Position numbers and translations under genes: made by a program
In this document: positions 4,994-62,271 of the stretch, in pieces
Position numbering within the stretch: position 1 is the stretch's first letter
Layout: each line of letters begins with the position of its first letter
The notes under the pieces: generated by a model
What the model saw: only the letters and a program-made list of their open reading frames with translations
Told to the model about the DNA's origin: nothing
Database searches by the model: none
NCBI GenBank assembly: GCA_038049695.1
Contig: CP142452.1
Span: 51,666,501-51,730,500 of the forward strand
Source of the DNA: Cinnamomum chago
Lineage: Eukaryota; Streptophyta; Magnoliopsida; Laurales; Lauraceae
Direction: 5' to 3'
Length of the DNA stretch: 64,000 bases

Positions 4994-5582
4994 CTAAACA
5001 GCTTCCTGCAACTTTTCTTCTTCGTCGACCCCTTCATCATCCCCAGCCGGGTTTTCTTTATGACGATCATGTTAGGTATTTTGTATTTGCAATTTGATGG
5101 ATGCATTTGCACTTTAGCATCATTTGGATTCACACACTAGCATTGTTTTAGAAAACCTTGAAATCTAGTTTTATACATGCATAGCTTTTAAGATTTGGAA
5201 AAGTCTTTGCTTTATGCATGTTTTGGTTTTAAAGTTGGATGCATTGGTTTTGAAACCCAAACTCTTTTTGAAAACCTATTTCCTTGTGCACTACATTTGG
5301 AAAATCATGTTAGGTATTTAGGTTTGAGGTTTGCATACTTTCAGCACCTTTAGAATCAGTTTTGTATGCAATTTCATTTGAAAAGAGTTTTTCTCAAATC
5401 AAGCTAGCCTATGGTTTTAAAGTTTTCAAATTTGTTTAGGCTTCTTATAATCATGTTTTAATAACCTTTAGAATCTCTAAAACATGTATTTAAGCTTGAT
5501 TTAATGGCCCAAAAGGTCCCCCATAGAAATACCTTCAAATAGGCAAAAATTGAATTTTTGCAAAATGGGGTGTCTCGGCAGT

Positions 5583-5730
5583 GTCGCCGGTCGACCGAGA
5601 CCTGTGTCCCGGTCGACCGGGAACACTGTCGGGCAAGTGGAAAGTTTCTGTGCAGAAATTTTCCAACGGTCAGAAATACGACCGTTGTGTTGTCCCGGTC
5701 GACCGAGACACCTCTAGGTCGACCGAGACA
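5583..5730. repeat. GC-rich palindrome cluster, CGGTCGACCG type (K solo copy 1)
   Basis: Four copies of GGTCGACC occur here, one extended to TCCCGGTCGACCGGGA, interleaved with an ACGGTCAG...ACCGTTG hairpin. The cluster ends about 25 bp before the TATA box, so it is in the U3 promoter. Confidence 0.8.
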
Positions 5731-5755
5731 ACTAGCCGTTGGACTGTTTTTTGCC

Positions 5756-5761
5756 TATAAA
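5756..5761 (+). promoter_or_regulatory. TATA box of K LTR copy 1
   Basis: TATAAA sits in CCTATAAAGTCC, about 690 bp into the LTR. The equivalent positions in the other K LTRs also have a TATA word. Transcription would begin roughly 30 bp downstream; this start is inferred. Confidence 0.65.
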
Positions 5762-6566
5762 GTCCATTCATTTCCAACTTCTCAAAAGTTGAACAAATGA
5801 GCCTTTGAGAGCATTTTGGAGCCAAACAAAGGGGAAGAAGTTGGAAAGGCTAGGAGGTCATTAGGAGAGCTAAAGCTTGGATTAATGAGTTAAACCACCA
5901 AGTAAGCTTTACCTTTTGTTAATCATAGTTTTCATGTCTTGTTTAAGTAATTGGTAAATGTTTTTGTACATGATAACTATGAAGTGATGAATCCATTCTT
6001 CTCTTAATCTTTGATGTAATTAAGATTGGATTCTTTACTTTGTTTCAATCCAAGTTGTTTTTTTAAAACCTTCTTAATCATGCCTAGGTTAAATCTTTGA
6101 TTTTCTTTACATGCATGATTCTTTGTCTTGGTTGAAACTTGCTTGTTGTTTTCATTCATTTAAACATTAGTAAAATCTATTTGTTTTTTAAAACAACATT
6201 GCACATGCATCACATGTTCTAAGTTAGTCTTTTACATACAACTTGTGATTCTTGATTTTCATATCATAAACAAGTTATTAAAACATACATGTGATTTGCA
6301 TTAGACTTCATTCAAATCTTTTATATGTCTTAAACTTTGAATTGCTTTGAGCATACATATGAATGAGCCTTCATTTTAAACTTGATTGAAGTCATCACAC
6401 ACACACCTCATAAGCATACATCTTTGCATTCATAGAGTGTTTGTGTGAGTTTGTTATTCACTTTCATATCCGCCTATTTAGAGGCAATTTACTTGAGCTT
6501 AAATTGTAATCTCTTAGAGTGTTGAGTAAACACTTCCTTAGAGAATTATTGATTTGTAAAGGTTAT

Positions 6567-6758
6567 TGCTTAGCCTAAGAAAAGCATTGTAAAGGTTATT
6601 GCTTAGCCTAAGAAAAGCATCTTGTAAGGTTATTGCTTAGCCTAAGAAAAGCATTTTGTAAAGGTTATTGCTTAGCCTAGAAAAGCACATTGTAAGGTTG
6701 TTGTTGAGCCTAGAAAAACAACATTGTATAGGTTATTGCTTAGCCTTTGAAAAAGCAT
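6567..6758 (+). repeat. Six-unit tandem hairpin repeat in K LTR (loop AGCCTA)
   Basis: Six units of about 33-38 bp read GGTTATTGCTTAGCCTAAGA then AAAGCAT. Each folds with stem TGCTT/AAGCA around the loop AGCCTA. Unit five (6699-6723) has stem TGTTGTT/AACAACA: both arms changed together and the loop stayed. Other K LTRs carry four units. It lies downstream of the TATA box, so it would be in RNA. Confidence 0.85.
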
Positions 6759-7023
6759 ACATAGTGGAAATCCGGTGGGGTGATTGGATTCACAAGCCGG
6801 TAGTGGATGTAGGCATTGAGGCCGAACCACTATAAACATTGGTGTTGTGGTGCATGCTATGTGGTGATTGTATTTGTATTAGCTTCCGCATTTTGTTTGT
6901 TAATCATCACATGTGACTAGTTTATGCTAAGAAGTTAAAATTGGTCATAATTAGTCATAGTTGTAGCTCACCCTATTCACCCCCCCCCCCCCCCTCTAGG
7001 GTTAGGATCCTCGTGGACTTTCA

Positions 7024-8980
7024 GATCAATCGGAAGGGAAGTGAATTCTGAAGTCACAGTCTCAGGTGAAGAAACCTGAGAGGGTGTTATCTCCGTGTAT
7101 GTCTCATGAGACGAGGTAGCTTCAGAAGATATATTGCTTGGTGTCGCCGAAGTATAACTGATATCATCAGACGAGGCCTCGGAAGAGCTATGATCCTGAA
7201 TTATAACATTACAGGTAGCTCGAGTGGGAGATGTTGCCTGCTCGGAGTCAGACTCTTCCTCGGATGTAAGAGGATCATCAATCCAACAATTTTCTCCATT
7301 TTCAGGAGTTAGGGGAGAAGGTACCTGAGGGTCTTCAGGGATTCCTGGCTCCGGATTGGGAGGAAGCTCGTTGACGCGGTCGCGCTCTTGTTCGAGAGCT
7401 AGACGCTGCAAGATCCTCGCATATTCTGCAAGACCAGGCATGGGAGCCAGGTTTTCTTCTTCATCATCTCCTTGTGGCTCAACATGGTTGATTTCCACAG
7501 GATCAACGACGGGTGCTGGAATGACAGCATTTTCTTGTACAGCCGCTTGGTCATCTTCATCATCAGACCAGGATCCTTGTGGCCGTAAGGGGTCATACCA
7601 GATTACTGGCATAAGATAAGTATCAGGGACCCACTCTTCATCAGAGAGGTATTCTCCTGTCTCAAGGGATTCTTCCCACTCGTCAGTGCTGTCGAATCCG
7701 TCGTTGGTATCGCTGGACTCATATCCATCCATGGTGAATCCAACTACCGAGTTGCAAGAGTATGATGCCCCCTGCGTGGCCTCTTCTTTGAGTTGAGGTG
7801 GCATGAAATCATTGAGTATGAATTTTCTTACCGCCTTTGAGGTCTTTGAAGCGGTAGAGGAGGCCTCTGCCTTTTCATCAACTTCTTGCTTTGGTTGGGC
7901 CTTCTCTTGCTTTTTGGGCTTGAAAAGGTGTCTCCTAGCCTGCCTTCGCTGTTGAGCTGTCCGCTTTGTTTTTACGATCTCCCAATTTTCATCTTCTAGG
8001 AGATCAGGGTGTACCCATAAGGGTTGTCCATCTGGAGTCGGGTAAGGAACCAGCCCCTCGGACGCTTCGATTTCATTTATCACCTTGAAGGAGGTAGTGA
8101 TCTTCTTCTTTGGTGATTTTGATGTTTGTCCATACGAGATCATGTTGACGGAGGCGGACCCATAGTTTTTGTCGAAGATGATGACTCCATTTTTCCACAT
8201 CTCGTTTATCTTTTCTCTCACAACGAAGCATTGATTGAGAGGGTGTGACACCATCTGGTGGTATGGACAATACCGGGGATCGTTGGTTTTGCCAACATCT
8301 TCCGGCCTCTTTGGCTCAGGCAAGGTGAGCTTGCCATTTGCTATGAGAGCTTCAAAGATCTCGTCAACATCTTCGTCGAACGGGTATTTCTTCTCTACTC
8401 GCTCTCTGAAGGCTTCTGAGAGTTCAGGTCTCTTTCCGGCAGATTTGTTTTCAGCCTTCTTTTGTGGCTGAGGAGTTGACTTGGTTTGCACATTGAGGAC
8501 CTCTTTCTTCTTTGGTTTAGAGGTTGCAATGGCGGTTGGCTCCTTCTTTGATGACTTCTGACTGTTGAGGTCTTTGATCACCGTTTCAGCCTCCATAGAA
8601 GCTTCTAGGAGTTCTCCCAAGTTCTTTGATTTGTTGCCGATGATCATGGAGCGGATTCTGGCTCTCATGTTATTTCGGCAGATGTCGACCAGCGACGCTT
8701 GTGGCAGCACATCGGAGCATTTGTACGCCATGGCTTTCCACTTGTGAATGAAGTCGTATGTAGACTCATTCTCCCCCTGTTTCAGGCTGCAGAGCTGAGC
8801 CATAGTAACAGGATGATCCTCACCTTTGAAGTGAGTCAAGAAGCGTGTCTCCAGCATGGTCCAATTCTGAATGGAGTTCTCTGGAAGAGTGGAGTACCAA
8901 TCAAAGGCCGTACCTTTTAGGGTGCTTGCAAAGAGGCGAATCTTGAGTGCATCTTGATCCGAGTGCATCTTGATCCGCAA
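7024..8980 (-). pseudogene. Gypsy-1 gag, capsid and C-terminal part
   Basis: Gag forms the virus-like particle that packages element RNA. The first 140 residues are the retrotransposon gag (capsid-like) domain: LKIRLFASTLKGTAFDWYSTLP, FKGEDHPVTMAQLCSLKQ and STYDFIHKWKAMAYKCSD are diagnostic. A basic region follows, then an atypical zinc knuckle C237-x2-H240-x4-H245-x4-C250, as found in Tat-like gag proteins. The rest is a long acidic low-complexity tail. It is broken at both ends: a 16-bp tandem duplication shifts the frame at the N-terminal side, and the K solo LTR is inserted at 7024. Family assignment is firm; the lineage is inferred. Confidence 0.85.
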
Positions 8981-13226: not shown

Positions 13227-13612
13227 GGCCTTTAGGTAGCCTTTAGGAGTGATTTATGAGCCTTTATGGTAATAAAGCTCATTAAGGGAGGAGTTACAAG
13301 TTTAATTGTCTCTTGCTTTGTAACTCCTGCCCCTTGGATTTCATTGGCCGGAGGAGAGTGTAAGTCCATGGGGATCCGAACCCTAGAGGGGGGGTGAATA
13401 GGGTGAGCTTCTTTTATGACCAATTTTAACAATTTTAACTTCTTTAAAACAAACTAGTCATAAGTGATGATTATCAAACAATATGCGGAAGCTAATAAAA
13501 ACAATCACCACAAAGCAAGCACCATCACACAAGTATTTATAGTGGTTCGGCCTCAATGCCTACATCCACTACCGGCTTGTGATCCAACACCCCACCGGAT
13601 TTCCACTATTTA

Positions 13613-13735
13613 TGCTTTTCAATAGGCTAAGCAATAACCTTTACAATATGCTTTCCAAGGCTAAGCAATAACCTTACAATGATGTTTTTCAAGGCTTAAC
13701 ATCAACCTATACACTATGCTTTTAAAGGCTAAGCA
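13613..13735 (-). repeat. Four-unit tandem hairpin repeat in K LTR
   Basis: Written on the plus strand, stems are TGCTT 13613-13617/AAGCA 13629-13633, TGCTT 13649-13653/AAGCA 13663-13667, GATGTT 13681-13686/AACATC 13698-13703, and TGCTT 13717-13721/AAGCA 13731-13735. The loops share AGGCT. The third unit differs from the others in both arms by paired changes. Confidence 0.85.
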
Positions 13736-14025
13736 ATAACCTCTTCAACCACAAGGTTGGTTATCTCACTAATTAGTGTCTAACATACACTTGATGGAGA
13801 TTCTATTTAGCTCATTACAATGCCTCTTAAATAGGCGGATATGGAAGTGAAATACAAATACACACTCACACTATGAATGCAAAGATGAAAACAAATGAAG
13901 TGTGTGTGTGTGGTCCTCAATCATTTTGAAAATGAAAGCTCATAAATGTATGCCTAAGGCTTTTGAAAGTTTTAGCTCAAAAACATTTATGATTGAGGAT
14001 ATAATGCAATCACATGTTAAAAGTA

Positions 14026-14838
14026 ACAACTTGTTAATGATATCAAAGTTACACAAGTTGTATGAAATGGATTAGCTCTAAACATGTGATGCATAGGGAT
14101 GTCAATCAAATCACCAATGAAGCTCAAAACATAAAAATAGATTTGATTGAAAAGAGGGGACAAATCATATGTAATTATAAGGACAACTTGAAAATGATTT
14201 ACCTATCAAAGTGATGCAAGTTGTGAAACTTTAAAACAATAATACACATATGATTTGTAATGATGTTGAATCCAAAACATAAGATACATTTGAAAGAGAT
14301 TTTCTTATGATGGAAAAACAACAACCAATGATTCAACAAAGTATATGAATCATGTCACATATTTCATTAACATGATCTACTTAGATTTACCAAAGATAAA
14401 GTACTACTTTGATGAATCAATGGTGATGTATCCAAAACAATAGATCTATTCAAAATATAACACATGCTAAGGATACAACAAATCATAGATTAACATGTTA
14501 CAAAGATTTACCAATGATAAAACAAAACATGAAAACATATGATTTGTAAAGAAGTTGAATCCAAAACATAAGTTAGTTTTGAGAGAGATGTTCTTATGAT
14601 GGAAAACAACAATCAAAGATTCAACCAAGTATATGGATCATGTTACATATGATTTACCAAAGTTCTTTCATTAACATGATCTACTTTGATTTACCAATTC
14701 AAGTACTACTTGGATTGAATCATGTGATGTTGTATCCAAAACAATAAATCAACTCAAAACATAAAATATGTTAAGGACACAACACAAACATAGTTTAACA
14801 TGCTAGAAATGATTTACCAAAAATAAAACAAAAGCATG
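14026..14838 (-). repeat. Hairpins with GATTTACC loops in K LTR R/U5
   Basis: Perfect stems include ACAACTTGT 14026-14034/ACAAGTTGT 14053-14061, CAATCAAATC 14103-14112/GATTTGATTG 14140-14149, a 13-bp stem 14160-14172/14246-14258 enclosing CAACTTG 14184-14190/CAAGTTG 14217-14223, ATCATGTTA 14637-14645/TAACATGAT 14672-14680, and CATGCT 14799-14804/AGCATG 14833-14838. Several loops hold GATTTACC followed by an A-rich stretch. The same structures recur at 19330-20142 and, with changes, at 60731-61545. Confidence 0.8.
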
Positions 14839-15011
14839 CAAACATATGATTAAGAAAGGAAGAGCCTACTTGGTGGTTTAACTTCATTAATCCAAGCTTT
14901 AGCTTTCCTAATCTTCCCCTTCATCCCTTGGTTCTCTTCCCTTTTGATATGCCTCAAATCCTCTCAAGGAGGGGTTAAAAATTCCCAACTTTTGGTAAGG
15001 GAAAGAACTCA

Positions 15012-15018
15012 TTTTATA
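15012..15018 (-). promoter_or_regulatory. TATA box of K LTR
   Basis: The minus strand reads GGCTATAAAATGAG. It is conserved in position with the TATA words of the other K LTRs (the twin LTR has it at 20316-20322). It places all hairpin arrays within the transcribed part. Confidence 0.7.
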
Positions 15019-15047
15019 GCCAAAAAGGTCCAACGGCTATATCCTCG

Positions 15048-15184
15048 GTCGACCGGCACACAGGCCTCGGTCGACCGGGAAGGCACAACGGTCAGATTTC
15101 TGACCGTTGGAGGTTTCAGTGCAAAAATGCAGTTTTTACCTCCAGTTGTCTCGGTCGACCGAGACCTGTGTCTCGGTCGACCGG
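15048..15184. repeat. GC-rich palindrome cluster, CGGTCGACCG type (K LTR)
   Basis: Four CGGTCGACCG words lie just upstream of the TATA box in sense orientation. The twin LTR has the same cluster at 20352-20488. Confidence 0.85.
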
Positions 15185-15569
15185 CGACACTGCCGGGACT
15201 CCCCCCTATTTGCAAAAAATGCAACTTTTGCATATTTGAAGGTTTTTCTTTGGGGGACCTTTTGGCCACTAAATCAAGCTTGGAAAACATGTTTTAAAGA
15301 TTTTAAAGGTTTTTAAAACATGACATAAAAAGCCTAAAAAGTTTCAAAACTTTTAAAACAAAGGCTTGCTTGATTTCTTGAAAACTCTTTTCTAAAACAA
15401 ATGCATCCAAGATTTAAAAAACAAATCATGCATAAAGCAAGATCTTAAAAACAATGCATGAATAAATCAAGATTTCAAGTTTACTTTAAAACCAATGCAA
15501 GTGTGTAAAACAAATGATGCTAGAATGATATGCATCCATCAAATTGCAATCTAGAAAATTCCTAACAAT

Positions 15570-15579
15570 CTCCCCCTTT
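15570..15579 (-). other. K polypurine tract
   Basis: The minus strand reads AAAGGGGGAGAT directly before the LTR start TGTTAG. It would prime plus-strand cDNA synthesis. Similar tracts occur at about 15800, 15875 and 15932. Confidence 0.85.
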
Positions 15580-16316
15580 GCAATTTGATGGCAAACACAC
15601 TCACCACTGACAATACACACTTAGTCTTCAGCTCCCCCTCAGCTGGACAAGGCTTGAAATCTTCTTGGATGCTTCTTCTCATAGCTTGGGCTCTTGGACT
15701 TCAATCTTCATGATGCTTGGAGCTTGATCAACCTTCAAGCTTTCTTTCTTCATGGCCAAGCATCTTCTTTAGCTCCAAGCTTTCTTTCTTCTATTTACTC
15801 TCCCCCTTTGACCATGCCTCTTTCTCCCTTTGGCAAGGTATGTATTCTCTCCCTTTGTAGAAGATCATACACAACTCTCCCCTTTGGAAGCTTGGACTTT
15901 CTCTTCACCCTTTTGAGAACTTGCATAATTTCTCCCCCTTTGCCATTAAATTGCAAAGGTACCTACACACATGAAACAAAGAAAATACCTTTAGTAGCAC
16001 CTGTTAACAAATGAAATCGAAAATGAAATACATAACAGGCTATCATGTGAGGTAGTAGTCTCTAAGGGCTCAAGGGCAATCCAAGGGTCAATTTGATCAT
16101 AACTAATACTTCCTATGAAGGTTTACACTCCCCCTCAATCCATTCTCTTCTTTTGTCAAGCTTTTGACAAGATATAACTATTAGATTCAAGAAGTATATG
16201 GTTTATCCAAGTGAGGGTCAACTTCAAGGAAAGGATTAGATTCATTTAACTATCAAGCTCATATGATCAAATTGCCAAAAGAAAGCAAGGTCTATGGGAA
16301 AAGCCATCATGGATAT

Positions 16317-18514
16317 CAATTGGAAAGACAAAGAATACCAATTGAGATTTAGGATATGACTATTTAAATCAATCACTCTAAAATGGATTTAAAAATATAC
16401 CTATTAGGAAAAATCCAAATTAGAGCTATCCATGATACAATGGGGTTTATTAAACATAGCATCAAATAATCTAACTATTGAAAATCATATGCTATGTAAG
16501 TTTTGAACTCATTTCATTCAATCAATAAATATGACTATTAAAGTGCATGAAAGAGTGAAATGAAATTCAATCATGAAGCCAACCTCAAATAATAACCAAC
16601 CAATATTATTAACACATAAACATGGTGGTCATGAGATTTACCTATGAGAGCAAAGAGAGGTGGCAACAAGAGCATAATGATGCTAATGGTGTGTGACATG
16701 GAACAACCATATTACTTATCAAGTTCAATCCAATGCACACAAGATTTATCACATTCACAAGAAATCAAATCAATCAAACATTATACCAATTGAAACTAAT
16801 TGAATTTGATAACATGATAAAGAGCAAGAATGTGACAAAAATCCATCAAGCATCATAAATGCATATTCATCACTTTTAAAGATATAACTAAAGAGCATAG
16901 TGATGAACAAGAGAAATTGCAATGCAAAAAGATATGACTTGGTAAAGCATGCAATTTCCAAAGTGTCTAAATCATATGAATTCAACATCTAAGATATCCA
17001 TCAAACATATAGAAATATGAGAAATGGGTTTCAAAGAGTTTCATATGATTAAGAACACTACTTATGAAGTTGAAACATGTATAAGAATGAAATCACCTAG
17101 AGAATACACATGAATCAACATCATAACCATCCAAATAGAAATGACTATAAAAGCATAGAGGATGGATTTTAGTTCTAGTATGGTTTCTACAAATGTAATA
17201 AATAACACAACCATACATAGAACACTTTGACATTTGCATAGAGAGGATCTATCAACACTCAAGATCTAACTCATACCAATCATCAATAAAGAATATAACT
17301 TTTGAAAGCACAAGAAGGTATGAAGTGAGAGAGACATCATGGATCACATAAAGATGAAGATGGACCACATAAATGGATATACCTATTAAGAATAATGGTT
17401 TAATTCCAATTCATCTAAAATGATCCATTAAGCTATCATGTAACATCTCCACTCTTAGCAAGTGTACTATGCTTACAATGCAATGGAAAAGGATATGTGG
17501 TTTAAACCAAATGAACTTAGCACATAAAATCACATATGTACTTAAAAAGCTCAAATACAAGATTTTACTATAAAGCACATAAACAATCATCAAAATGCAT
17601 TAATGAGAATATACCAAGTTAGGCACAAACATGCAAATCAATGAAACATATCCAACCATGCAATGTAAGACAACAAAATCAATTTGCATAAAGAATGTAA
17701 CTTAATGAGCAAAGATGCAAATTGTTTGTAACAACTATTTCCTTCCAAAAGATATAATCATAATTAGGCACAAGGAAATAGATTCAAGGAAAATGTTTCT
17801 ATAAATATAACTAATAAAGCTTAGAACATTTTCCAAAGTTTCTCAAATCACTTCAACATTTGAAATTCCAACAAGGAATCAATTATAGAATTAAGAGCAA
17901 GTGAATTTGAAAAACAAGAAGTGTACTATTATAAAATTTTCAATTTTTGAAACAATAGTCACTCACAAATTTTCCATATCAAAAGATATAACTTATAAAT
18001 CAATGGAAAACTAAAGTTGCTTCAAATCATTTGATTTCCAAAAAGGATATAACTATGACAATCATCAAATGATTTTCCAACATCAATTGATCATGAAAAA
18101 CTAGCTATGAAAGCATTTGTAATCACAATCAATTGATCATGAATAGATATGCACTACAAGAGATATAACTATATGATCAAAATGCAAATCCATCATGAAA
18201 GTATTGCAATCAAAGGATTTTGAAAACCATGAGATATAACTTTAAAAGTTCATGAAGACAAAATCAAATGATCACAAAGAAACATTGCATTTTAAAAGAT
18301 GTGACTCTAAAGAAACAAAATGCAAATGTACTATGACCAACAAATAGATATAACTAAAAAGCATAAGTTGGTCTAGGGGTATCAAGGCCTTAAGGTTACT
18401 CAAATAGTCTACCTTTGAAAATACACCTAAGGTCTTGAAAAGGTGTCCTTGAGAGATTACTTTGAGGACTCACCAACTCTAGAAGATATAACTTAGAAAA
18501 GTCTTAGAGTGGTG
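16317..18514 (-). repeat. Array of at least 17 hairpins with constant loop and variable stem
   Basis: Plus-strand stems and positions: CAATTGG 16317/16338; GATTTA 16346/16365; TGGATTT 16384/16411; CATAGCAT 16455/16489; CATTTCA 16510/16556; TCACATTC 16749/16828; TTCATCACT 16866/16899; GAAATTGCA 16913/16950; CCATCC 17127/17160; CATACC 17272/17317; CAATTTGCAT 17680/17715; TATTTCCTT 17736/17772; GGAAAATGTT 17788/17825; TTTTCCAT 17970/18003; AAATCATTTGA 18024/18065; GATTTTG 18216/18259; TTGCATTTT 18285/18317; GACCAAC 18335/18367; CACCAACTCTA 18471/18505 (one bulge). Nearly all loops contain a variant of GATATAACTA followed by AAAGCA. Stems of different units are unrelated to one another. Confidence 0.85.
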
Positions 18515-18648
18515 CAATGAGGCAAGGGGAAAAATCATTTTCAAACATAGTGGAAATCTTTAAAAAGATATGCAATAAATCACAACACTAGGGTCCAAAT
18601 CTAGCAAGGATCAACTCCGGGTTGTTAAGCCCTAAAATGGAGTAACCC

Positions 18649-18660
18649 GCTCTGATACCA
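18649..18660 (-). other. K primer-binding site (initiator-Met tRNA)
   Basis: The minus strand reads TGGTATCAGAGC, the usual complement of plant initiator-Met tRNA, two bases from the LTR end at 18663. Confidence 0.95.
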
Positions 18661-18662
18661 CT

Positions 18663-20871
18663 TGTAAGTCCATGGGGATCCGAACCCTAGAGGGGGGGTG
18701 AATAGGGTGAGCTTCTTTTATGACCAATTTTAACAATTTTAACTTCTTTAAAACAAACTAGTCATAAGTGATGATTATCAAACAATATGCGGAAGCTAAT
18801 AAAAACAATCACCACAAAGCAAGCACCATCACACAAGTATTTATAGTGGTTCGGCCTCAATGCCTACATCCACTACCGGCTTGTGATCCAACACCCCACC
18901 GGATTTCCACTATTTATGCTTTTCAATAGGCTAAGCAATAACCTTTACAATATGCTTTCCAAGGCTAAGCAATAACCTTACAATGATGTTTTTCAAGGCT
19001 TAACATCAACCTATACACTATGCTTTTAAAGGCTAAGCAATAACCTCTTCAACCACAAGGTTGGTTATCTCACTAATTAGTGTCTAACATACACTTGATG
19101 GAGATTCTATTTAGCTCATTACAATGCCTCTTAAATAGGCGGATATGGAAGTGAAATACAAATACACACTCACACTATGAATGCAAAGATGAAAACAAAT
19201 GAAGTGTGTGTGTGTGGTCCTCAATCATTTTGAAAATGAAAGCTCATAAATGTATGCCTAAGGCTTTTGAAAGTTTTAGCTCAAAAACATTTATGATTGA
19301 GGATATAATGCAATCACATGTTAAAAGTAACAACTTGTTAATGATATCAAAGTTACACAAGTTGTATGAAATGGATTAGCTCTAAACATGTGATGCATAG
19401 GGATGTCAATCAAATCACCAATGAAGCTCAAAACATAAAAATAGATTTGATTGAAAAGAGGGGACAAATCATATGTAATTATAAGGACAACTTGAAAATG
19501 ATTTACCTATCAAAGTGATGCAAGTTGTGAAACTTTAAAACAATAATACACATATGATTTGTAATGATGTTGAATCCAAAACATAAGATACATTTGAAAG
19601 AGATTTTCTTATGATGGAAAAACAACAACCAATGATTCAACAAAGTATATGAATCATGTCACATATTTCATTAACATGATCTACTTAGATTTACCAAAGA
19701 TAAAGTACTACTTTGATGAATCAATGGTGATGTATCCAAAACAATAGATCTATTCAAAATATAACACATGCTAAGGATACAACAAATCATAGATTAACAT
19801 GTTACAAAGATTTACCAATGATAAAACAAAACATGAAAACATATGATTTGTAAAGAAGTTGAATCCAAAACATAAGTTAGTTTTGAGAGAGATGTTCTTA
19901 TGATGGAAAACAACAATCAAAGATTCAACCAAGTATATGGATCATGTTACATATGATTTACCAAAGTTCTTTCATTAACATGATCTACTTTGATTTACCA
20001 ATTCAAGTACTACTTGGATTGAATCATGTGATGTTGTATCCAAAACAATAAATCAACTCAAAACATAAAATATGTTAAGGACACAACACAAACATAGTTT
20101 AACATGCTAGAAATGATTTACCAAAAATAAAACAAAAGCATGCAAACATATGATTAAGAAAGGAAGAGCCTACTTGGTGGTTTAACTTCATTAATCCAAG
20201 CTTTAGCTTTCCTAATCTTCCCCTTCATCCCTTGGTTCTCTTCCCTTTTGATATGCCTCAAATCCTCTCAAGGAGGGGTTAAAAATTCCCAACTTTTGGT
20301 AAGGGAAAGAACTCATTTTATAGCCAAAAAGGTCCAACGGCTATATCCTCGGTCGACCGGCACACAGGCCTCGGTCGACCGGGAAGGCACAACGGTCAGA
20401 TTTCTGACCGTTGGAGGTTTCAGTGCAAAAATGCAGTTTTTACCTCCAGTTGTCTCGGTCGACCGAGACCTGTGTCTCGGTCGACCGGCGACACTGCCGG
20501 GACTCCCCCCTATTTGCAAAAAATGCAACTTTTGCATATTTGAAGGTTTTTCTTTGGGGGACCTTTTGGCCACTAAATCAAGCTTGGAAAACATGTTTTA
20601 AAGATTTTAAAGGTTTTTAAAACATGACATAAAAAGCCTAAAAAGTTTCAAAACTTTTAAAACAAAGGCTTGCTTGATTTCTTGAAAACTCTTTTCTAAA
20701 ACAAATGCATCCAAGATTTAAAAAACAAATCATGCATAAAGCAAGATCTTAAAAACAATGCATGAATAAATCAAGATTTCAAGTTTACTTTAAAACCAAT
20801 GCAAGTGTGTAAAACAAATGATGCTAGAATGATATGCATCCATCAAATTGCAATCTAGAAAATTCCTAACA
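18663..20871 (-). mobile_element. K element 5' LTR
   Basis: It has the same length as the 3' LTR and is offset by 5,304 bp, with no mismatch seen. It carries the same palindromes (20352-20488), TATA box and hairpins. Confidence 0.95.
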
Positions 20872-22646
20872 GAGAGTCATGGGCATTTAATCGCCTTTAA
20901 TCTCCATTATGTTAGGAGTTTCATGGCTTGAATGCCATGATTCTTTGGACTTGTAACTCCTGAACAGAGGCTTTTGATTGGGCCGTCCAAGATAATGGGT
21001 TAATGACTGCATTAACTTGCCATAAACGGGCCAATTGATAGCATTAAGTGTCCGCCTTAGTAGCTGAAGAGTCGCGGGCCATGTTGCGTCTTTTGGAATC
21101 CCCTTTGCGATGATCATCGATGGATCCTTATGTAAATCAACATCAGATGATCATGTAGTTTCAGATATTGGTTGATACCAGCGGGCCGGCAGCATCTGTC
21201 CAGTTGATTTCACGATCGGGTGGGCAGAAAGTGCACTTTTTTGGTTGTTCGGCTGGCGATCAATGAAGTTTTTGAAGTTCTGGAAAGGAGTCCTGTGATC
21301 TTGATGAATATCAGTGAATTTGGAGCCTCAAAAGCCTGAATCTAGAAAAATCACAGGGACAGAACAACTCGTCTCGCGAAAACGGACGAAACGGGGGGTC
21401 CCGGGGCGAAATCGGCGCCCCGGACCTCCCAGGGTCGCCGGGCCCATGGTCGCCGGCGACCCTGGGGGGAAAATCCCTTCCCGGGGCCCGTTTTTGGCCG
21501 TTTCTCGTCGTTTTTTGCTTCCGTTTTTTTTGCTTATTTTCTCTGACATTTCTCCACATTATTTGGCTTGATTTCCCTCTGAAAAACCTGATGAGAATCC
21601 TTGCAAATTGGTTTGCAAAGTTTCTGATTTTCCGGGAAAAGCCGAACGCGGAACTGCTGATTTTCCGCCAGAAGCTGAAACAGGATCAAACGATGTCAGA
21701 ATGACCTGAAATTTGAGGTGAAGCTTCTTGAGCATTAAATAAGACCAACCATGGGCTTTTGTTTGAGTTTTGAAGTCGTTTGGGGTCATGCAAACGCTTG
21801 CCTTTGATTTCACCGCAAGGGAAATGTCGAGCTTTGACTTTCGGTCAAACGATGTCCGATTGATCTGACATTCGACGTGTGACTCCCTTATCAGTAGATA
21901 AGACCAACCACAGGCTTTCGTTTGAGTTTTGAAGCCATTTGGAGTCATGCAAACGCTTGCCTTTGATTTCACCGCGAGGGAAATGCCGAGCTTTGACTTT
22001 TGGTCAAACGATGTCCGATTGACCTGAAATTCGACGTGTGACTCCCTCATAAGTAGATAAGACGAACCACAGGCTTTCGTTTGATTTTTGAAGCCATTTG
22101 GAGTCATGCAAATGCTTGCCTTTGATTTCACCGCGAGGGAAATGCCGAGTTTTGACTTCTGGTCAAACGATGTCCGATTGACCTGAAATTCGACGAGGTG
22201 CCTATTGGAGTCATTTTGAGATGATCTACAAGCTCCGAATTGGGTGCCATGGTCCCGGGGTGCTCTGCCGCTGGTAGGCTTGATTCAGCCGTTGGAGAGT
22301 TGATGATGGGTCAAACGTTGCTGGTTTGACTTGAGACTTGACGTGGAGCCCTTTGGACATATTTTGAGAACATCCATAGGCCCCGATCGAAGATTTGGTG
22401 TCTCCGATTCTGCTGCCGCCGGGAGCGCTTGTTTAGCTGTTGGAGAAGTGAAGCTAGGCCAAATGATGTCGGAATGGCCCGAAACTTCATGTGTACCTCT
22501 CTTTTGGTTGTTTTGAATGACCTTGCAGTTTTTGTTTGGTTCTGACAAGATCTGATGCTTGAAGTGGCGCCTGCCTATTTTTGGTAGGATGCGGCTCCAC
22601 GTAGCTTTTGGTGTAAAGAGTCAAAGTGACATTTTTGGTGTCAACA
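20872..22646 (-). mobile_element. Gypsy-1 5' LTR, U3 segment
   Basis: This is the continuation of 12368-13358 beyond the K insertion. It starts (minus strand) TGTTGACACC at 22646. It holds three 159-bp units, a GC palindrome cluster (21415-21473) and about 170 bp (roughly 22280-22450) not in the 3' LTR. At 22647 sequence changes to a Tekay LTR beginning ATGCA; the matching duplication at the other Gypsy-1 end is outside the window. Confidence 0.85.
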
Positions 22647-40336: not shown

Positions 40337-42320
40337 TGAAAGTTCATGCATATCAGATTTAAAAGAGATAAACATGGCTGATTAGAGTTTTAAAAACTTA
40401 AAACCATGTCTGATATCAGCCATTAAATCATGCATGTAAACCCATGAAATCATGACCAACATGTTCCTAAATCAAGGAGTAGATAGTAATCTATTACCTT
40501 GATGATTTGTGTGCTCTGAAACTTTGAAAAGAGAAGCTTTAAGGTTCTGAAATCCTCCTGCAATCTACAACCCAGGTGCAGGAATTAATGTGCAGATTTA
40601 TCTCCTTTGATCTTCTCTCCTATTCCACTTCCAAATCTGATTGGCAATGATGGTGGGATCAAAGTATGGGATCCAAGAAGTGATTTCTGAATCACTAATT
40701 GTGGAGAAGAAAGTTGCTGGTCTTCTCTCTCCTAAGATGAAGAAGATGGCAGTAACTAGTATGGCTGGGCGTGAATTCTCCCCTTGCACTCAATGGCCGG
40801 CCAAGGGTTTTTATGTTGAGGCACGCCCCTCTTTGAATTCCCTTGATCTCTTTCTTAGTAAACCCTATGTTGCACGTCCAAGAAGGTGCTTCCTTTAAAT
40901 AGAGATCACATTCCTTTTCCTAATAGGAATGACTTTCCATAAAAATTAGAAACTAGTCTCCTTAGTTGTGCAACACTTACTAAATTAGGAAACTAAAATT
41001 AGTAACCTTTAAAGAGAGGAATTCTTACCCAAAGAGGAGTCTTGCCTTCCAAGTAAAGATGTCTAATCAAACTTGGAAACCTCACACATGTGACCCCACA
41101 TATGGCTGGCCCACAAAGTAGCTAAACACCCCATGGCCCACATGTCAATAATTTAGCTAGAGTTAAATTCATGTATGCCCATAGGAGCCTATTAGAATTT
41201 AAACTCAAAATTATTCTTCCACAAATTAATTCAATCACATTTCATCTAATTAGGAAACCATGCCAAAATAGGAAAGTGGCTAGAAGAGGGACCAAAAGAC
41301 ATATTTGCCCTTGGCTCCCAAAATGACCAAAATGTCCATGCTAACCCCATAGCAACATTAAGATCATTTTAACCCTAACTCATTCCACTAAAGAGTTATG
41401 GTTGCACTCCAGGGACAAATATTAAATTCAATTAAGCTCATCATAAATAGACGATAGTCTTCGACCTACCAAGCACAATGACCACAATGCCCCTCTATGT
41501 AACATCCATAATCAAGTAGGTTAACCGATGTACTATCTACCTTCTTGATTACATCTCAACCTTAGAACTTCATACCCTTGACCTAATCATCATCCGGATA
41601 TCATTCTCTTGATCCAGGGAGCGACCCACAAGTTCAATATCCATATGGAACATCCATATACTAAGATCTTAGATTATGATGATTAATTGGATAATTCTAA
41701 GGGGACGATCATTCCATCTCCCGATGGCATAGATTCCATATTGCATTTGCACGTTCCAACTAATCAAGCCCGAGCACCCAAAACACAGAGCTGTTGACCC
41801 ATGTACAGGATCTCACCCACAGTGAATTAAAGCACAAGAACTTGACTTCGTCAGTTCATCCACAAATGCTCAAGATTAAGAGCACTGGTCACTCAGTAGC
41901 AAGAGGTGGTTTGATCTCTCTCTGCGATAGTACTATTTTAGAGATCACACCTACAAGTGGTCCTGTTCAATGCATGACACATGCACTAATGAGATAAATC
42001 TGGGAAAGACCTCCCGTGACTAAGGTAAGTCACCCTAAACATAGGAGAGTTTCTCATTATAACTTATACCAAGATGAAGTGCCCAACTCCACCTCTCAGT
42101 TATGAACAAATTAGTTGTTTCCAATATCCATGACTCAGACCTTTCTGTGTGCAGCCACTGCACACCCAAGTCATTTACTAGAAAACAATGGGCCTTATAC
42201 AACCATACATATACACAAGTAATATGAGAAAGATGTCATTCCATTAAATAACCAATAAATATCCAGTTACAGAGATGAAAGTGCAGTCAGTGGGCTTTAG
42301 GGCATACACCAATCCCAACA
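40337..42320 (-). mobile_element. Solo copia-type LTR, 8-bp flanking duplication ATTTAAGT
   Basis: The minus strand reads TGTTGGGATTGGTGTATGCC...GAACTTTCA. ATTTAAGT is found on both sides (40329-40336 and 42321-42328) and once in the undisturbed LTR (46551-46558). The opening motif is typical of plant copia LTRs. It has no coding frame. Confidence 0.85.
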
Positions 42321-47728: not shown

Positions 47729-48030
47729 GAAAACAAATTCAAGCAATAGTTTAATGGGAATGCTTGTTTGAAACTTTGATCAAAATCTTCTAATTTTTTG
47801 AAAATCTTTTGTCAAATGGTTGTTTTGGCATGGGAGCCGAATTTTGTTTGCAGCATGAAAGCCAAATTTGGAGTTTATGGCATGAGAGTCAAAATTTTAT
47901 TTTTCGCGTGAAAGCCAAGGTTTGTTTTTGGTTGCATGAGAGGCAAGATTTTACAGGATCTGAATTTTTGAGATGGCATGAAAGCCGGTTTTCAAGCTTA
48001 ACATTCGATACTTCCAAATTTCAAAATCGC

Positions 48031-48370
48031 CGAGAAGCGACACTTTGTCGATACTTGCACAAAAAGATCATGGAGATGAAAAATTCCAATTGATATCCAC
48101 AAACCCAGAATTTAAACAAAAACCGAGGTAAAAAAAAACAAACCTCAAATTTCAAAAATCGTGGGGAAGCGACATTCCATCGATACCCACAAAACCAAAA
48201 TTTTTGAGAAAAAAAAGCAAGGAAGCAATGCTTAGTCGATACTTGTGCCCAAATTTGCGAGGAGGCGACATTCCATCGATACTCCCAACCGAATGAGCAA
48301 GGATGCGACATTCCATCGATACTTGCAAGACCATTCAGCAGGGAGGCGACTTTTAGTCGATATTTGTATT
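48031..48370. repeat. GCGACATTCCATCGATAC tandem repeat
   Basis: About six units with GCGACATTCCATCGATAC or GCGACTTTTAGTCGATA recur every 35-130 bp. Some pair CGA with TCG around ATTCCA, so small hairpins are possible. Confidence 0.65.
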
Positions 48371-48385
48371 TTTGAAAACCAAAAC

Positions 48386-48700
48386 TCGGCTATAAATGCC
48401 ACAAAAAATCGGCTAATAATGCCACAAAAATCGGCTATAAACGCCACAAAAAACCGGCTATAAACGCCAAAAACTCGGCTCTCATGCCAAAAATTGGCTA
48501 TAAACGCCAAAAACCTGGCTCTCACGCCAAAAATTGGCTATAAATGCCACAAAACCTGGCTTTCATGCCAATAAAACAAAACTTGGTTTCAAAATTAAAT
48601 CGGCTATAAATGCCACAAAAATCGGCTATAAACGCCACAAAAAATTGGCTCTCATGCCACAAACTCGGCTATAAACACCACAAAATCGGCTATAAACGCA
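48386..48700. repeat. CGGCTATAAACGCCAC tandem repeat
   Basis: About fourteen units of 18-25 bp read TCGGCTATAAACGCCACAAA with variants. It is the complement of the short repeat in the Gypsy-1 LTR (12638-12708). Confidence 0.8.
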
Positions 48701-49109
48701 CAAAATTTTGGCTTCCATGCCAAAAACAAAATTTCGGCTTCTATGCCAACCAAAAACAAATCTTGGCTATCAATGCCACAAACAAAATTTTTTAGCTCCC
48801 ATGCCACAAATAAAACCGGCTTCCATGCCATCGCAAATTTTGGCTTTCATGCCATTTCAAAGAACTTCGACTCCTACGCCACAAAATTCGACTCATGCCA
48901 TTTCAAAAATTGGCTTTCATGCCATCCCAAAAAAATTTGGCACCCATGCCACAAACAAAATTCCGGCTTCCATGTCGACCCAAATTTGGCTCTCATGCCA
49001 TCTCAAAATTCAACTTTCACGCCATCACAAAATTCGGCTTTCACAAAATGACAAACTTTTGATCAAATTTCCAAACAAACATTCCCATTTAACTATTGCT
49101 TGAATTTAT

Positions 49110-50850: not shown

Positions 50851-50931
50851 CCGGTCGACCTGGCCCCGTGCTCAGTCAACAGGCTGACTTGCAGGTCGGT
50901 CGACCGAGCCCTCTGGCCGGTCGACCGAGCC
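50851..50931. repeat. GC-rich palindromes, CGGTCGACCG type, in Copia-3 leader
   Basis: Three GGTCGACC words occur here. The aligned part of Copia-2 has a GGCTAACCGCC word instead. Confidence 0.75.
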
Positions 50932-52191: not shown

Positions 52192-55039
52192 TGTCGCGAC
52201 CCCGGAACGGATCCCGGCCCCGCGACGCAGTAGATGATACTTTCCCACAGGTTCCCGCGGTGAGGATTCCCAAGGACAAGCGGAATCTGGCTCACACGTA
52301 CAAGTATGCGGAAGCGTGTAGCAAAACACCTCAAGATGAGCACCGACAAAACATTTAGGTGCCATAACAAATTATCACAAGGCATAGTATCAAAGAAAGA
52401 AACTAACATGGCATTCCCATTAATATTCAAGTTATAAGACTAATCAACAGTAAGTTAAGTTACAATTCCATAAGAGGCCAACAGAGGCCAATACAATTCT
52501 CAAAATATAGCAAACGAAACCCCCAGACAAAAGGTGACGAAACTCGAGAACCCGCCCGACGTCTAGATGACATCGTCGGGCTGCCACTCTCTCACAGGGG
52601 TTGGCTCACAAGCCTCCTCCTGACGCTCCTCCTCAAAGGTAACGTCTCCTGCACCTGGGCACCAACAAACAAGGGTAAAACACGACGGTTTGGCAGGTAA
52701 TCAATTTGGGCAGGAACATGAACAATAACATTTAGAGAAAACATGTGAGCAAATCTTTGATATGAAATACTATCAAAACTGAGGTACATTTTCAAGAATG
52801 CGAACAAAGCTGAGATACCGAAACAAACTAACATGAATACATAATATATCATGAATAGTTACAATCCACAAAGAGCCCATCCTTTCTCTATCATTTATAT
52901 AATGAAAAGAGCAAGCACGCACGACAAGCACGATATACATAATATAAGCACGACACGATTTCCCACAAAGACGGGAATTCCGGCCGCGGAACCGGACACG
53001 CACGATGTGTAATAAATACACGTCCAGTCTGCAGACAGTCCACATGTTTAAAGACCCCCAGACAGTGGATCGGACTGAAAGGGCAGTCTAAGCTCAGTGG
53101 TATTTACTTAATTCATGAATGCACAAAACACGCGAGATATTAACAAAACTTGTCGAGATAAACAGGGGGAAATCAATTATCAAAACACGATAAACACGAC
53201 TAGCGAGGGCATAATTAATATGCATAACACGCTTAGGAAGTGATCCCCTTTTTTCTTGAAACACATCTTCAAAACTAGCTTGTACTTAACTTCAAAACGA
53301 GTACACGATGATCTTCATTATATCGAAACCAAAGCACGAATACAGAGCCTATCAAGTTCATGCAAGGACCTTTGGTTGATCGTTGTGCAGCCGAAGCCCA
53401 GATGTTGGAATTAAAACAGAATTGGTGCCCCAAAAGTTCAAGGACATCTCGGGTTTCGAGTGCATAATATCCGGCTAAAGGCCCCTAAACATGTTCTAGT
53501 TTTCATTCTTGCAAAAAATCTTCAAAACAAGCAAATGTGTCAATTTCGGTCAGCTCGCGCTCAGCTGTCGGCTAGCCGAAATGGGAACTGGCAGCTAGCC
53601 GCAAGGTGACCGCTGGAAACCCAGGTCTGAAACAGCTCTCTGGAAAAGGAACCGAAATGCCCATAGCTGGCTTACGGTTAGCCGCAAGGGAAGCTGGCGG
53701 TTAACCGCGAGCTGACCGCAGGGCTGACCGCCGAACCCTGATGCAAAAGCCAGCTACTGGAAAAGCAACCGCCGAGTTCGGTTAGCCTGCGGTTAGCTGA
53801 AGTGGAGACTGGCGGCTAGCCGCAAGCTGACCGCTAATGCACGGGACACACGGTTCAGTGCAGGTTTTTCACATCTTTCTTCTACCCTTCTTCTTATTCT
53901 CATCCCACCTGCATTCCCTTGAGCCTACATGCTCTCCAAGGGTAAAACACACATATTTTTCCCAATCTTGCTCATTCAATCCGAAGAAAACAAGATCATG
54001 AAATTTGTAAACATATTCATATGCAAAATTTCCAAAACAACAATGTAGCTTAAAATACACATGCACAATGGTCCTATAGAGATTACTTGCCTTGCCCAAA
54101 TGCTAAACAATCATTCTCAAGCACTTCTCTCAAGCTAAGCCAACACTACAAGAAAACCCAAGAGAAAACCACACAACTTACTCAAAAATGGAACCAAGGA
54201 ACCCATTTGAACAAAATGTTTTGAAAACATGAAAAACATGATCTTGAGGAACCAAAATAACTCCATAAAGGATATGAGTGGAAGCTCTTACCTAGAGAAG
54301 GTCAAACAAGAAAGGAGGAAGAAAATGTAGACCTTGTTCCACAAGAAACTCCAATAAGCTTATACCAATAGAGAGCTTGCAAGGAGATGAAGAAGATGAT
54401 AAGCTTGGAATTCTATTTGGAGCTCTCTAGCCAAAGCACGCAAGATGAAGAAGATTGAAGAGAAGAAGAGCTTTCCTAGCCCTAGGTCAAGAAAGTTGCA
54501 GGAATTGGTAAAGTGAATGAAAAGAGAGGGAGATGGGGGAGGAAAATGGGCCCCAACTAGCTGAACTTGAAACTACGAAAACATGGTCTTGGGGACCTCG
54601 GATGACTTCGACGAAGAAGGATAAAACGATCGTCGAAAAATCTAGTTTCCAAAAAGTATATTTTTGACATGGTTTTGAGAACTTGAAAATTGTGTCCAGA
54701 TTTGTACATAAAAAACAATTTTACCCACTTTGGGCCAAAACATGGGTTTTTGGGCTTCAAATATGAATATGCTTAAAACTAAAGTTGCAACACGTCGGAA
54801 CCTCATTCAAATGAAATCAAAATCACAATCACACGGAAAACGATACGATCTTCCCAAGCTCACACGTGCACTCAGGCCTCCCTGAGTGTGTCTGACTGAT
54901 ACTAAACGTCCTCACCATTCCCAAAGCTATGTCCAAGACTAAAACTAATTACTTCTAACCAAACAACAACTAAACCCACTTAGGACTAAACACATACTAA
55001 TCGCACACTAATCGTAAAGGTCTGGGTCGGGGTCTAACA
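52192..55039 (-). mobile_element. Gypsy-2 (Tekay) 3' LTR
   Basis: This 2,848-bp LTR reads TGTTAGACCCCGACCCAG...GGGGTCGCGACA on the minus strand. GCACT (52187-52191) is the likely target duplication; its partner is off-window. It holds GGCTAACCGCC-type palindromes at 53545-53835. Comparison with the start of the 5' LTR shows about 1% difference (two changes in 177 bp). Confidence 0.95.
53545..53835. repeat. GC-rich palindrome cluster, GGCTAACCGCC type (Gypsy-2 3' LTR)
   Basis: Words such as GGCTAGCCG, GGCGGTTAACCGC and GGCGGCTAGCCGC recur here. The 5' LTR cluster (63455-63735) differs by small gains and losses of words. Confidence 0.85.
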
Positions 55040-60069: not shown

Positions 60070-62271
60070 TGTAAGTCCTGGAGATCCGAACCCTAGAGGG
60101 GGGTGAATAGGGTGAGCTTCAACTATGACCAATTTTAACCAATTTTAACTTCTTTAAAACAAACTAGTTACATGTGATGATTTATCATACAAGATGCGGA
60201 AGCTAACAAAATAATCACCACAAAGCAATCACCATCACACAAGTATTTATAGTGGTTCGGCCTCAATGCCTACATCCACTACCGGCTTGTGAACCAACAC
60301 CCCACCGGATTTCCACTATTTATGCTTTTCAATAGGCTAAGCAATAACCTTTACAATATGCTTTCCAAGGCTAAGCAATAACCTTTACATTGATGTTTTT
60401 TCAAGGCTTAACATCAACCTATTCATTATGCGTTTATAGGCTAAGCAATAACCTCTTCAACCACAAGGTTGGTTATCTCTCTAAATTAGTGTCTAAATTA
60501 CACTTGATGGAGATTCAATTTAGCTCATTACAATGCCTCTTAAATAGGCGGATATGGAAGTGAAAATCTAATACACACTCACACTATGAATGCAAAGATG
60601 AAAGTATATGAAATGTGTGTGTGATGTCCTCAATCATTTAGAAAATGAAAGCTCATAAATGTATGCCTAAGGCTTTTGAAAGTTTTAGCTCAAAAACATT
60701 TATGATTGAGGAAAGAATGCAATCACATGTTAAAAGTAACAACTTGTTAATGATATCAAAGTTACACAAGTTGTATGAAATTAATTAGCTCTAAACATGT
60801 GATGCATAGGGATGTCAATCAAATCAACATGAAGCTCAAAACATAAAAATAGATTTGATTGAAAAGAGGGGACAAATCATATGTAATTATAAATACAACT
60901 TGAATAGTGATATACCTATCAAAGTAAGGCAACTTGTGAAACTTTAAAACAATAATACACATATGATTTGTAAAGATGTTGAATCCAAAACATAAGATAC
61001 ATTTGAAAGAGATTTTCTTATGATGGAAAAACAACAACCAAAGATTCAACCAAGTATATGAATCATGTTACATATTTCATTAACATGATCTACTTAGATT
61101 TACCAAAGATAAAGTACTACTTGGATTGAATCAAATGGTGATGTATCCAAAACAATAGATCTATTCAAAATATAAGACATGCTAAGGATACAACACATCA
61201 TAGGTTAACATGTTACTAAAGATTTACCAATGATAAAACAAAACATGAAAACATATGATTTGTAAAGAAGTTGAGTCCAAAACATAAGATAGTTTTGAAA
61301 GTGATTTTCTTATGATGGAAAACAACAACCAAAGATTCAACCAAGTATAGGAATCATGTTACATATAATTTCAAAGGTTCTTTCATTAACATGATCTACT
61401 TAGATTTACCAAAGATTAAGTACTACTTGGATTGAATCATATGGTGTTGTATCCAAAACAATAAATCAACTCAAAACATAAAACATGTTAAGGACACAAC
61501 ACAAACATAGTTTAACATGCTAGAAATGATTTACCAAAAATAAAACAAAACATGAAAACATATGATTAAGGAAAGTAAAGCCTACTTGGAGATTTAACTT
61601 CATTAATCCAAGCTTTAGCTTTCCTAATGCTCCCCTTCATCCCTTAGTTCATTTCCCTTCTATTTGCCTCAAAACCCCTCAAGGAGGGCCTTAAAATTCC
61701 CAACTTTTGGCAAAGGAAAGAACTCATATTTATAGCAAAACGTGCCCAACGGCTAGTCCCCGGTCGACCTGCAAACAGGTCTCGGTCGACCGGGATCACA
61801 CAACGGTCATATTTCTGACCGTTGGTGCGCCAGGGCAACTTTCTGCCTGCAGTGTTCCCGGTCGACCGGGACCCCTGGGCCGGTCGACCGGCGACACTGC
61901 CGGGACACCAAAAATCCACTTTTGCATGTTTGAAAGATTTTCTTTGTGGAACATTTTGGGCCAATAAACCAAGCTTGAATACATGTTTTAAATTATTCTA
62001 AGAGGTTTAAAAACATGAAACATAAAAAGCCTAAAATGATTCAAAACTTTAAAAACAAAGGCTAGCTTGATTTCTAAAACTTTTTCCAAAAACAAATGCA
62101 TCCAAGTTTTAAAAGCAAATCATGCATAAATCAAAACTTTTACAACTCTTAAAAACAATGCATGAATAAAACAAGATTTCAAGTTTATAAAACCAATGCA
62201 TAAGTGTGTGAATCAAATGATGCTAGAATGATTATGCATCCATCAAATTGCAATCTACAAAATTCCTAACA
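60070..62271 (-). mobile_element. Solo LTR of family K (copy 3), target duplication ATAAC
   Basis: This 2,202-bp LTR reads TGTTAGGAATTTTGTAG...CAGGACTTACA on the minus strand, with ATAAC at 60065-60069 and 62272-62276. The empty site is at 52364-52368 in the other Gypsy-2 LTR. It keeps the palindromes (61759-61892) and the tandem hairpin repeat, including the GATGTT/AACATC unit near 60391-60414. Confidence 0.95.

Follow-up and report, generated by a model that had tools for sequence, protein, structure and literature searches.

An array of hairpins with conserved stems in the internal domain of a gene-less LTR element of Cinnamomum chago

Why would a retrotransposon without genes carry a long row of short hairpins, each with a stem of its own and most with related loops? 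The question is raised by an LTR element, here called K1, in a stretch of 64,000 nucleotides from Cinnamomum chago (the window). An earlier note, made from the letters of the window, had described at 16317-18514 at least 17 consecutive units with perfect stems of 6-11 bp around a constant loop, in an element with no genes. It reasoned that either the two arms of each stem are kept complementary, with RNA shape as a likely selected trait, or a process copies one arm inverted. The genome with which the window was compared comprised 1.06 Gb in 14 contigs.

The element and its relatives

K1 occupies 13359-20871 with its sense on the minus strand, and GAGAG is present on both flanks (to the left of the 3' LTR and to the right of the 5' LTR). 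The internal domain (15568-18662) contained no stop-to-stop run longer than 72 aa in sense or 109 aa on the other strand, which bears out for K1 the claim that there are no genes; the claim fails for its relatives, among which the K3 subfamily has a long sense ORF.

Judged by its sequence, K1 is a young non-autonomous LTR element of the Sirevirus type. The LTRs are identical, and when 40 genome matches of a 141-bp array piece were scored, 23 proved identical, counting that of the window (the 40 were drawn from 2900 first-look candidates and are not a copy number), suggesting that K1 has been mobile recently. An autonomous partner of K1 was looked for and was not found. K1 has no pol, and the Sirevirus-type assignment rests on non-coding marks, not on a reverse transcriptase. 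The polypurine octamer AGGGGGAG occurs seven times in the whole window, compared to a shuffled mean of 1.78, with five of these in 15570-16135; a motif scan of the plus strand found five CTCCCCCT between 15570 and 16135. The inverted repeat at the junction of the polypurine tract (PPT) and the 3' LTR is present in a 15-bp form in copy L021. In the available text of PMC2829016, such non-coding marks are described for Sireviruses, including an inverted repeat at the PPT/3' LTR junction. K1 shares with these elements the repeated AGGGGGAG before the 3' LTR, the AT/TG site, the junction repeat and the CGG-CCG boxes of the LTR with a TATA box close behind. The TATA-like CTATAAAATGAG lies directly downstream of the CGGTCGACCG boxes, as described there, and the box reported from a Vitis Sirevirus is identical to CGGTCGACCG. 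In contrast to Sireviruses, K1 lacks gag-pol, and a hairpin array is not among the motifs in the available part of that paper, whose text there does not contain the words hairpin or stem-loop.

Other traces of the family were seen. Positions 60070-62271 are a solo LTR of the K2 subfamily (about 90% identity to the K1 LTR, ATAAC on both flanks), 5070-7024 is a K3-type LTR on the other strand, and two CGGTCGACCG boxes at 50897-50927, outside the K LTRs, perhaps belong to another Sirevirus-type element. Tandem K copies were found at G000:C12:57508675-57519423, G000:C2:2104267-2120315 and G000:C3:55167376-55178164 with spacings of 5304, 5203 and 5324 bp, respectively, a constancy expected from LTR-internal-LTR-internal arrays.

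Three related subfamilies were recognized. Over the array, K2 (L017, L018, L019 and L056) is about 92% identical to K1, K3 (L020-L037, L046 and L048) 81-82% and K4 (L053, L057 and L059-L063) 80-82%; K3 and K4 lack most of K1 17240-17970. Among 21 loci searched for the K3 ORF with two short words, 17 have, beside the array, a stop-free run of 470 aa or more in sense, and two others have runs of 391 and 440 aa; in L032 and L043 these words found no ORF. Pairwise dN/dS of the ORF was 0.34-0.71 for pairs with dS above 0.03. The predicted protein combines coiled-coil sequence with a zinc knuckle, for which Pfam scores stay below the curated cut-offs, and shows no match to a Pfam capsid family. It aligns to the C-terminal half of the Gag ORF of L044, which carries PF14223 (BLASTP E=5e-9, 19% identity, filters off); part of this score reflects coiled-coil composition, and the better indication is the zinc knuckle within the alignment. 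On this sequence evidence K3 is a sister subfamily that retains a partial Gag ORF (coiled coil and second, zinc-knuckle half). A peptide pattern for relatives of the ORF matched seven stretches in IMG/VR, none of which was confirmed. The source of the Gag ORF, L044:6299-9866, is a small element that has several AGGGGGAG tracts and repeats at a distance of 3071 bp, another Gag-only element of the Sirevirus type.

Stems and loops of the array

The hairpins and other features of K1 are listed in Table 1.

Table 1. Positions of K1 features in the window
Feature	Position	Strand	Remarks
3' LTR of K1	13359..15567	-	2209 bp; 100% identity with 18663-20871; TG...CA ends
Inverted repeat spanning PPT/3' LTR junction	15536..15591	.	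arms 15536-15547 and 15580-15591; read from sequence
Terminal polypurine tract AAAGGGGGAGAT	15568..15579	-	adjoins 3' LTR; AT/TG attachment site
Extra AGGGGGAG octamers	15632, 15800, 15932, 16128	-	beyond terminal polypurine tract
First loop-word unit	16147..16194	-	6-bp stem, inner hairpin
Multi-branched fold	16306..16437	-	closing stem 16306-16315/16428-16437; inner hairpins including 16316-16345
Hairpin ACATAGCAT/ATGCTATGT	16454..16497	-	TCATAGCAT/ATGCTATGA in K2 copies
Hairpin TCATTTCA.../...TGAAATGA	16509..16566	-	loop word AATATGACT
Hairpin, 9-bp stem	16866..16907	-	loop word GATATAACT
Hairpin, 9-bp stem	16913..16958	-	loop word GATATGACT
Long-loop hairpin, 11-bp stem	16970..17050	-	hairpin scan; in K3 copies, inner hairpin GAAATCCAT/ATGGATTTC (loop word GATATAACT) at this place
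Hairpin GTATGGTT/AACCATAC	17178..17216	-	without loop word
Hairpin, 7-bp stem	17271..17323	-	loop word AATATAACT
Three adjacent hairpins, 10-bp stems each	17680..17834	-	17680-17724, 17735-17781, 17788-17834; stretch common to K1 and K2, absent from K3
Hairpins	17970..18180	-	17970-18010; 18024-18075 (12-bp stem); 18082-18137 and 18133-18180 overlapping
Hairpins	18216..18373	-	18216-18265, 18285-18325, 18335-18373 (7-bp stem; the loop-word unit at 18347)
Last loop-word unit	18476..18510	-	6-bp stem
TGGTATCAGAGC, presumably the primer-binding site	18649..18660	-	motif position from sequence
5' LTR of K1	18663..20871	-	2209 bp, identical to other K1 LTR
Nested hairpins, AT-rich LTR part	19313..19985	-	some with related loop word GATTTACC; same in 3' LTR
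TATA-like CTATAAAATGAG	20312..20323	-	in sense, upstream of all listed hairpins; read from sequence
Four palindromic boxes CGGTCGACCG	20350..20487	.	5' LTR; same four in 3' LTR, 15046-15183

Perfect stems were in clear excess over chance. In 16317-18514 there were 16 stems of at least 8 bp with loops up to 50, compared to a mean of 3.73 (maximum 7) in 40 dinucleotide shuffles, and 10 stems of at least 9 bp with loops up to 60 (mean 1.00, maximum 4, again in 40 shuffles). When units were defined by a broad loop word, 15 of 19 had a stem of at least 7 bp and the mean stem was 7.95; when arms were mixed between units, 9.9% reached 7 bp, the mean was 5.13 and none of 2000 permutations reached the observed values. 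With a strict loop word, 13 of 17 units had such a stem, relative to a mean of 1.22 and a maximum of 5 in 500 flank shuffles. The array of the earlier note is thus real, its example hairpins (16866-16907, 16913-16958 and 18335-18373) were recovered and its arms are complementary beyond chance. The count of at least 17 was not reproduced, since 15 units have stems of 7 bp or more, and the longest stems are 12 rather than 11 bp. The limits also shifted: the first unit lies near 16147-16194, one group is better described as a multi-branched fold and hairpins fill the LTRs as well. Simple tandem duplication was rejected as a source of the array because, by inspection, the listed stems differ from unit to unit.

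Folding of the sense (minus) strand against shuffles, a check that the earlier note had proposed, gave z = -8.94 for 16290-17230 and -6.44 for 17600-18520; the antisense fold of 17600-18520 gave -4.81 (20 shuffles each). In 1-kb tiles (greedy count, loop up to 45), tile 16001 exceeded all 25 shuffles; the counts of tiles 17001 and 18001, 4 and 3, did not pass the maximum of 4 that the shuffles reached for each. Tiles of 200 nt, which split hairpins apart and hence give mild z-scores, had a mean z of only -1.72 in sense over the array (12 tiles) compared to -0.86 in 39 other tiles. Hairpin-rich 1-kb tiles in LTRs were 5001, 15001, 19001, 20001, 60001 and 61001. With 10 hairpins (shuffled mean 1.08), tile 5001 in the K3-type LTR region ranked first in the window, and shuffles were also exceeded in three tiles distant from K (41001-42000, 48001-49000 and 54001-55000).

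The loop word accompanied stems of at least 7 bp in 69 of 116 cases in K-like DNA, where copies are related and so not independent, and in 2 of 30 cases in 160,073 bases of other DNA. A search of 13300-20900 against Rfam returned no match up to E=1. In IMG/VR the loop word was found in 40 stretches, one match each, of which 38 were testable, with stems of 4 bp (37) or 5 bp (1); because these stretches look like one conserved sequence, they were not used as a control.

The loop itself is less uniform than had been claimed. Its word is degenerate (AGUYANAUY in sense) and sits in a loop of about 25 nt that is rich in U. The 9-base core of orthologous units diverged by 0.156-0.356 per site and the loop flanks by 0.176-0.349 (seven comparisons, six of them third-party, as defined below), so the word is not a constant one. 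Conservation of the core barely exceeds that of its flanks, an argument against a strict recognition word, and the view that the loop alone is what is kept was rejected on the same ground. Four core positions do seem conserved (24/213 changed, compared to 77/276 at the other five); these positions were picked post hoc and the counts were pooled over the seven non-independent comparisons.

Conservation of the stems and the strand concerned

In third-party tests, divergence between two subfamilies of the same genome was counted with stems that had been defined in a third. Divergence was 0.051-0.116 in stems, 0.168-0.284 in loops and 0.132-0.188 in the rest. The seven comparisons, which have sequences in common, gave p = 2.3e-5, 2.7e-7, 0.17, 0.027, 1.6e-4, 0.0038 and 5.4e-5, i.e. 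below 0.03 in six. Conservation of the stems between subfamilies is well supported.

Mutations private to single K4 copies served as the neutral yardstick. With stems defined in K3 they fell on 28/1248 stem, 37/2054 loop and 182/9510 other sites; with stems defined in K1, on 28/1629, 33/2326 and 180/8632, respectively. Set against divergence in one table, private mutations gave an odds ratio of 3.14 (p=8.6e-4) for stems from K3 and a flat result for stems from K1 (1.12, p=0.78), so that the contrast between stem conservation and neutral mutation is supported in one of two third-party tests. Earlier versions of the table gave p=0.15, 1.0 and 0.11, and another p=0.75, 0.46 and 0.036, with singletons that were not all post-insertion. 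Two poorly aligned copies (L058 and L064) were left out of the third-party and private-mutation counts above and of the G.U counts over 180 stem pairs and at other thresholds below, and were included in the version with p=0.15, 1.0 and 0.11.

Consensus folding was carried out on two alignments, A1 (20 of 25 listed stretches) and A2 (21 of 28); a third stretch (24 listed) was left out. Relative to 40 column shuffles, A1 folded with z = -14.0 in sense and -9.4 in antisense, and A2 with -8.7 and -9.9, no better in sense than in antisense. In A1, 98.0% of cells were paired (96.3% shuffled, 0/500) and both sides had changed in 10 of 97 pairs, compared to a shuffled mean of 5.5 (0/500). In A2, 98.5% of cells were paired (98.1% shuffled) and 1 of 57 pairs was doubly changed, which was not significant (mean 0.7, reached in 307/500). 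Both structures were derived from the alignments on which they were scored, which favours them over slid versions. By a strict count, 3 of 180 pairs were doubly changed. The stems are mainly conserved, with few double changes. The proposition that arms are kept complementary thus holds in conservation between subfamilies and in the double changes of A1; the excess of paired substitutions that the note had looked to was not repeated in A2.

Could the arms be perfected without selection, by template switching or quasi-palindrome correction during reverse transcription? Arm copying could yield non-homologous stems around related loops, and the arms do change together in some subfamilies (16454-16497). 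In old copies, however, private mutations are about as frequent in stems as elsewhere. They lend no support to arm repair in the genome, nor to the suggestion that one arm is copied inverted in copies already inserted. Mutations that persist in stems exclude only correction after insertion; arm copying at the reverse-transcription step remains compatible with equal private-mutation rates. A strand-symmetric process would produce both types of G.U equally. A plus-strand A.C mismatch is a G.U in the sense RNA, and G.T is one in the antisense alone. In 180 stem pairs, mismatches common to at least three copies comprised 14 sense-G.U, 3 antisense-G.U and 23 others, while rarer or private mismatches comprised 18, 16 and 33, respectively. 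The expected sense share of G.U was 0.488, and transitions outside stems were balanced (0.110 per pyrimidine site and 0.123 per purine site). The asymmetry depended on the threshold: at other sharing thresholds sense:antisense was 17:8, 11:3, 11:3 and 8:1, and p ranged from 0.013 to 0.11 (0.108 at 2, 0.057 at 4 and 5). A first count without K4 gave 24 vs 15 (p=0.20), and LTR stems had no clear asymmetry (4:4 and 3:1, or 7 vs 5 in total). The G.U asymmetry is moderate evidence for selection on the sense RNA, and we consider reverse-transcription errors as the whole cause of the array to be improbable.

Selection probably sees the RNA strand, and selection on the shape of the sense RNA is our best reading. 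The earlier proposal of RNA shape as the selected trait gains from stem conservation and from the sense bias of common G.U; it is weakened by the threshold dependence of that bias and by the near-even LTRs.

Possible roles and known counterparts

If selection acts on shape, on which molecule and for what? Palindromes might serve as DNA or as silencing bait, i.e. as cis-regulatory inverted repeats or as hairpins that feed small RNAs; the available text of PMC2829016 and PMC10760457 assigns to the palindromic boxes in the LTRs of Sireviruses a regulatory role and hot spots of small RNAs. In K1 the sequence differs from stem to stem, whereas the CGGTCGACCG box is repeated, and the array sits in the internal domain and R-U5, with the TATA-like box upstream of all listed hairpins. 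For Dicer products, stems of 6-12 bp with loops of about 25 nt are also short. A role as DNA or bait therefore seems to us quite improbable.

With an even chance of being right as a whole, we propose that the array is a conserved fold of the sense (minus-strand) genomic RNA of K1, the part of the explanation that we hold with most confidence. K1 would have lost its own genes and would be copied in trans by the proteins of a Sirevirus. Its hairpins would offer the zinc-knuckle part of Gag a large number of scattered sites for binding or condensation, each of weak specificity, and would let a gene-less RNA enter particles; the coiled-coil and zinc-knuckle protein of K3 could once have supplied such a binder. 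We infer this putative role in packaging or Gag binding in trans because K1 needs a helper, the loop word is loosely shared and K3 has a Gag-derived ORF. The weak constraint on the loop counts against it, as do the cis-acting signals of yeast Ty1, which according to the available text of PMC4974528 lie close to the termini, so that internal deletions of up to 5 kb are possible.

The hairpins might instead be selected in the RNA as a generic shield or scaffold that blocks ribosomes, slows decay or aids export or reverse transcription, with no specific recognition by protein. Constrained stems with a loop core that evolves almost as fast as its flanks would suit such a function, as would hairpins without the loop word (17178-17216) and the turnover of whole hairpins among subfamilies. 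Hairpin 18024-18075 is absent in K3 copies L022, L025 and L037 (A1, columns about 370-450), suggesting that hairpins are gained or lost as units. A shield would not need the degenerate loop word that recurs in most K1 units (13 by the strict word with stems of at least 7 bp) and is rare elsewhere, and we regard this explanation as possible though unlikely. A more far-reaching form of the Gag-site proposal, to which we give slightly less credence than to a shield, is that RNA shape is the only selected product of K, its dispersed predicted Gag-binding hairpins making a gene-less transcript the preferred cargo; K3-like ancestors would have had their own partial Gag, and the family would document how an element that supplied a helper turned into a pure parasite made of RNA.

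Like K1, large retrotransposon derivatives (LARDs, e.g. Sukkula), as described in the available sources, have long LTRs around some 3 kb of internal sequence without genes; they rely on an autonomous partner, as K1 presumably does. K1 has LTRs around a non-coding internal domain and conserved internal RNA structure (weaker in A2), as found in LARDs. According to the available part of PMC7215508, the RNA structures specified by LARDs and TRIMs are well conserved; a gene-less element with structured RNA is thus of a known kind. K differs in being Sirevirus-type with a sister subfamily that keeps a partial Gag ORF, and these sources mention for LARDs no succession of separate hairpins in which a loop word recurs. 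TR-GAG elements, in the excerpts available, resemble K3 in that only a Gag-derived protein is encoded; the K3 ORF comprises coiled coil and second, zinc-knuckle half with no capsid match, and K1 has no ORF. The dispersed packaging signals of ssRNA viruses (MS2 etc.) are many stem-loops with varied stems and a loose loop motif, and in K1 the stems vary around a recurrent, degenerate word that is hardly better conserved than the loop around it; in the viruses coat-protein binding is demonstrated (PMC6281560, available text), whereas the K hairpins are known from sequence. A literature search of titles and the starts of abstracts returned no description of such a hairpin array, and the available text of PMC12218528 had none of the transposable-element words searched for.

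Structured RNA of transposable elements is thought to invite silencing, so a structure that is kept should have a function (PMC10760457, available text). K bears on the question of how LTR elements without genes outcompete autonomous ones for entry into particles. It has young copies that are identical, diverged subfamilies, several of them within a single genome, and a sister line that retains part of Gag, which makes the role of RNA shape directly testable. In the gene-less and recently mobile K1, it seems to be RNA shape, not protein, that selection preserves.
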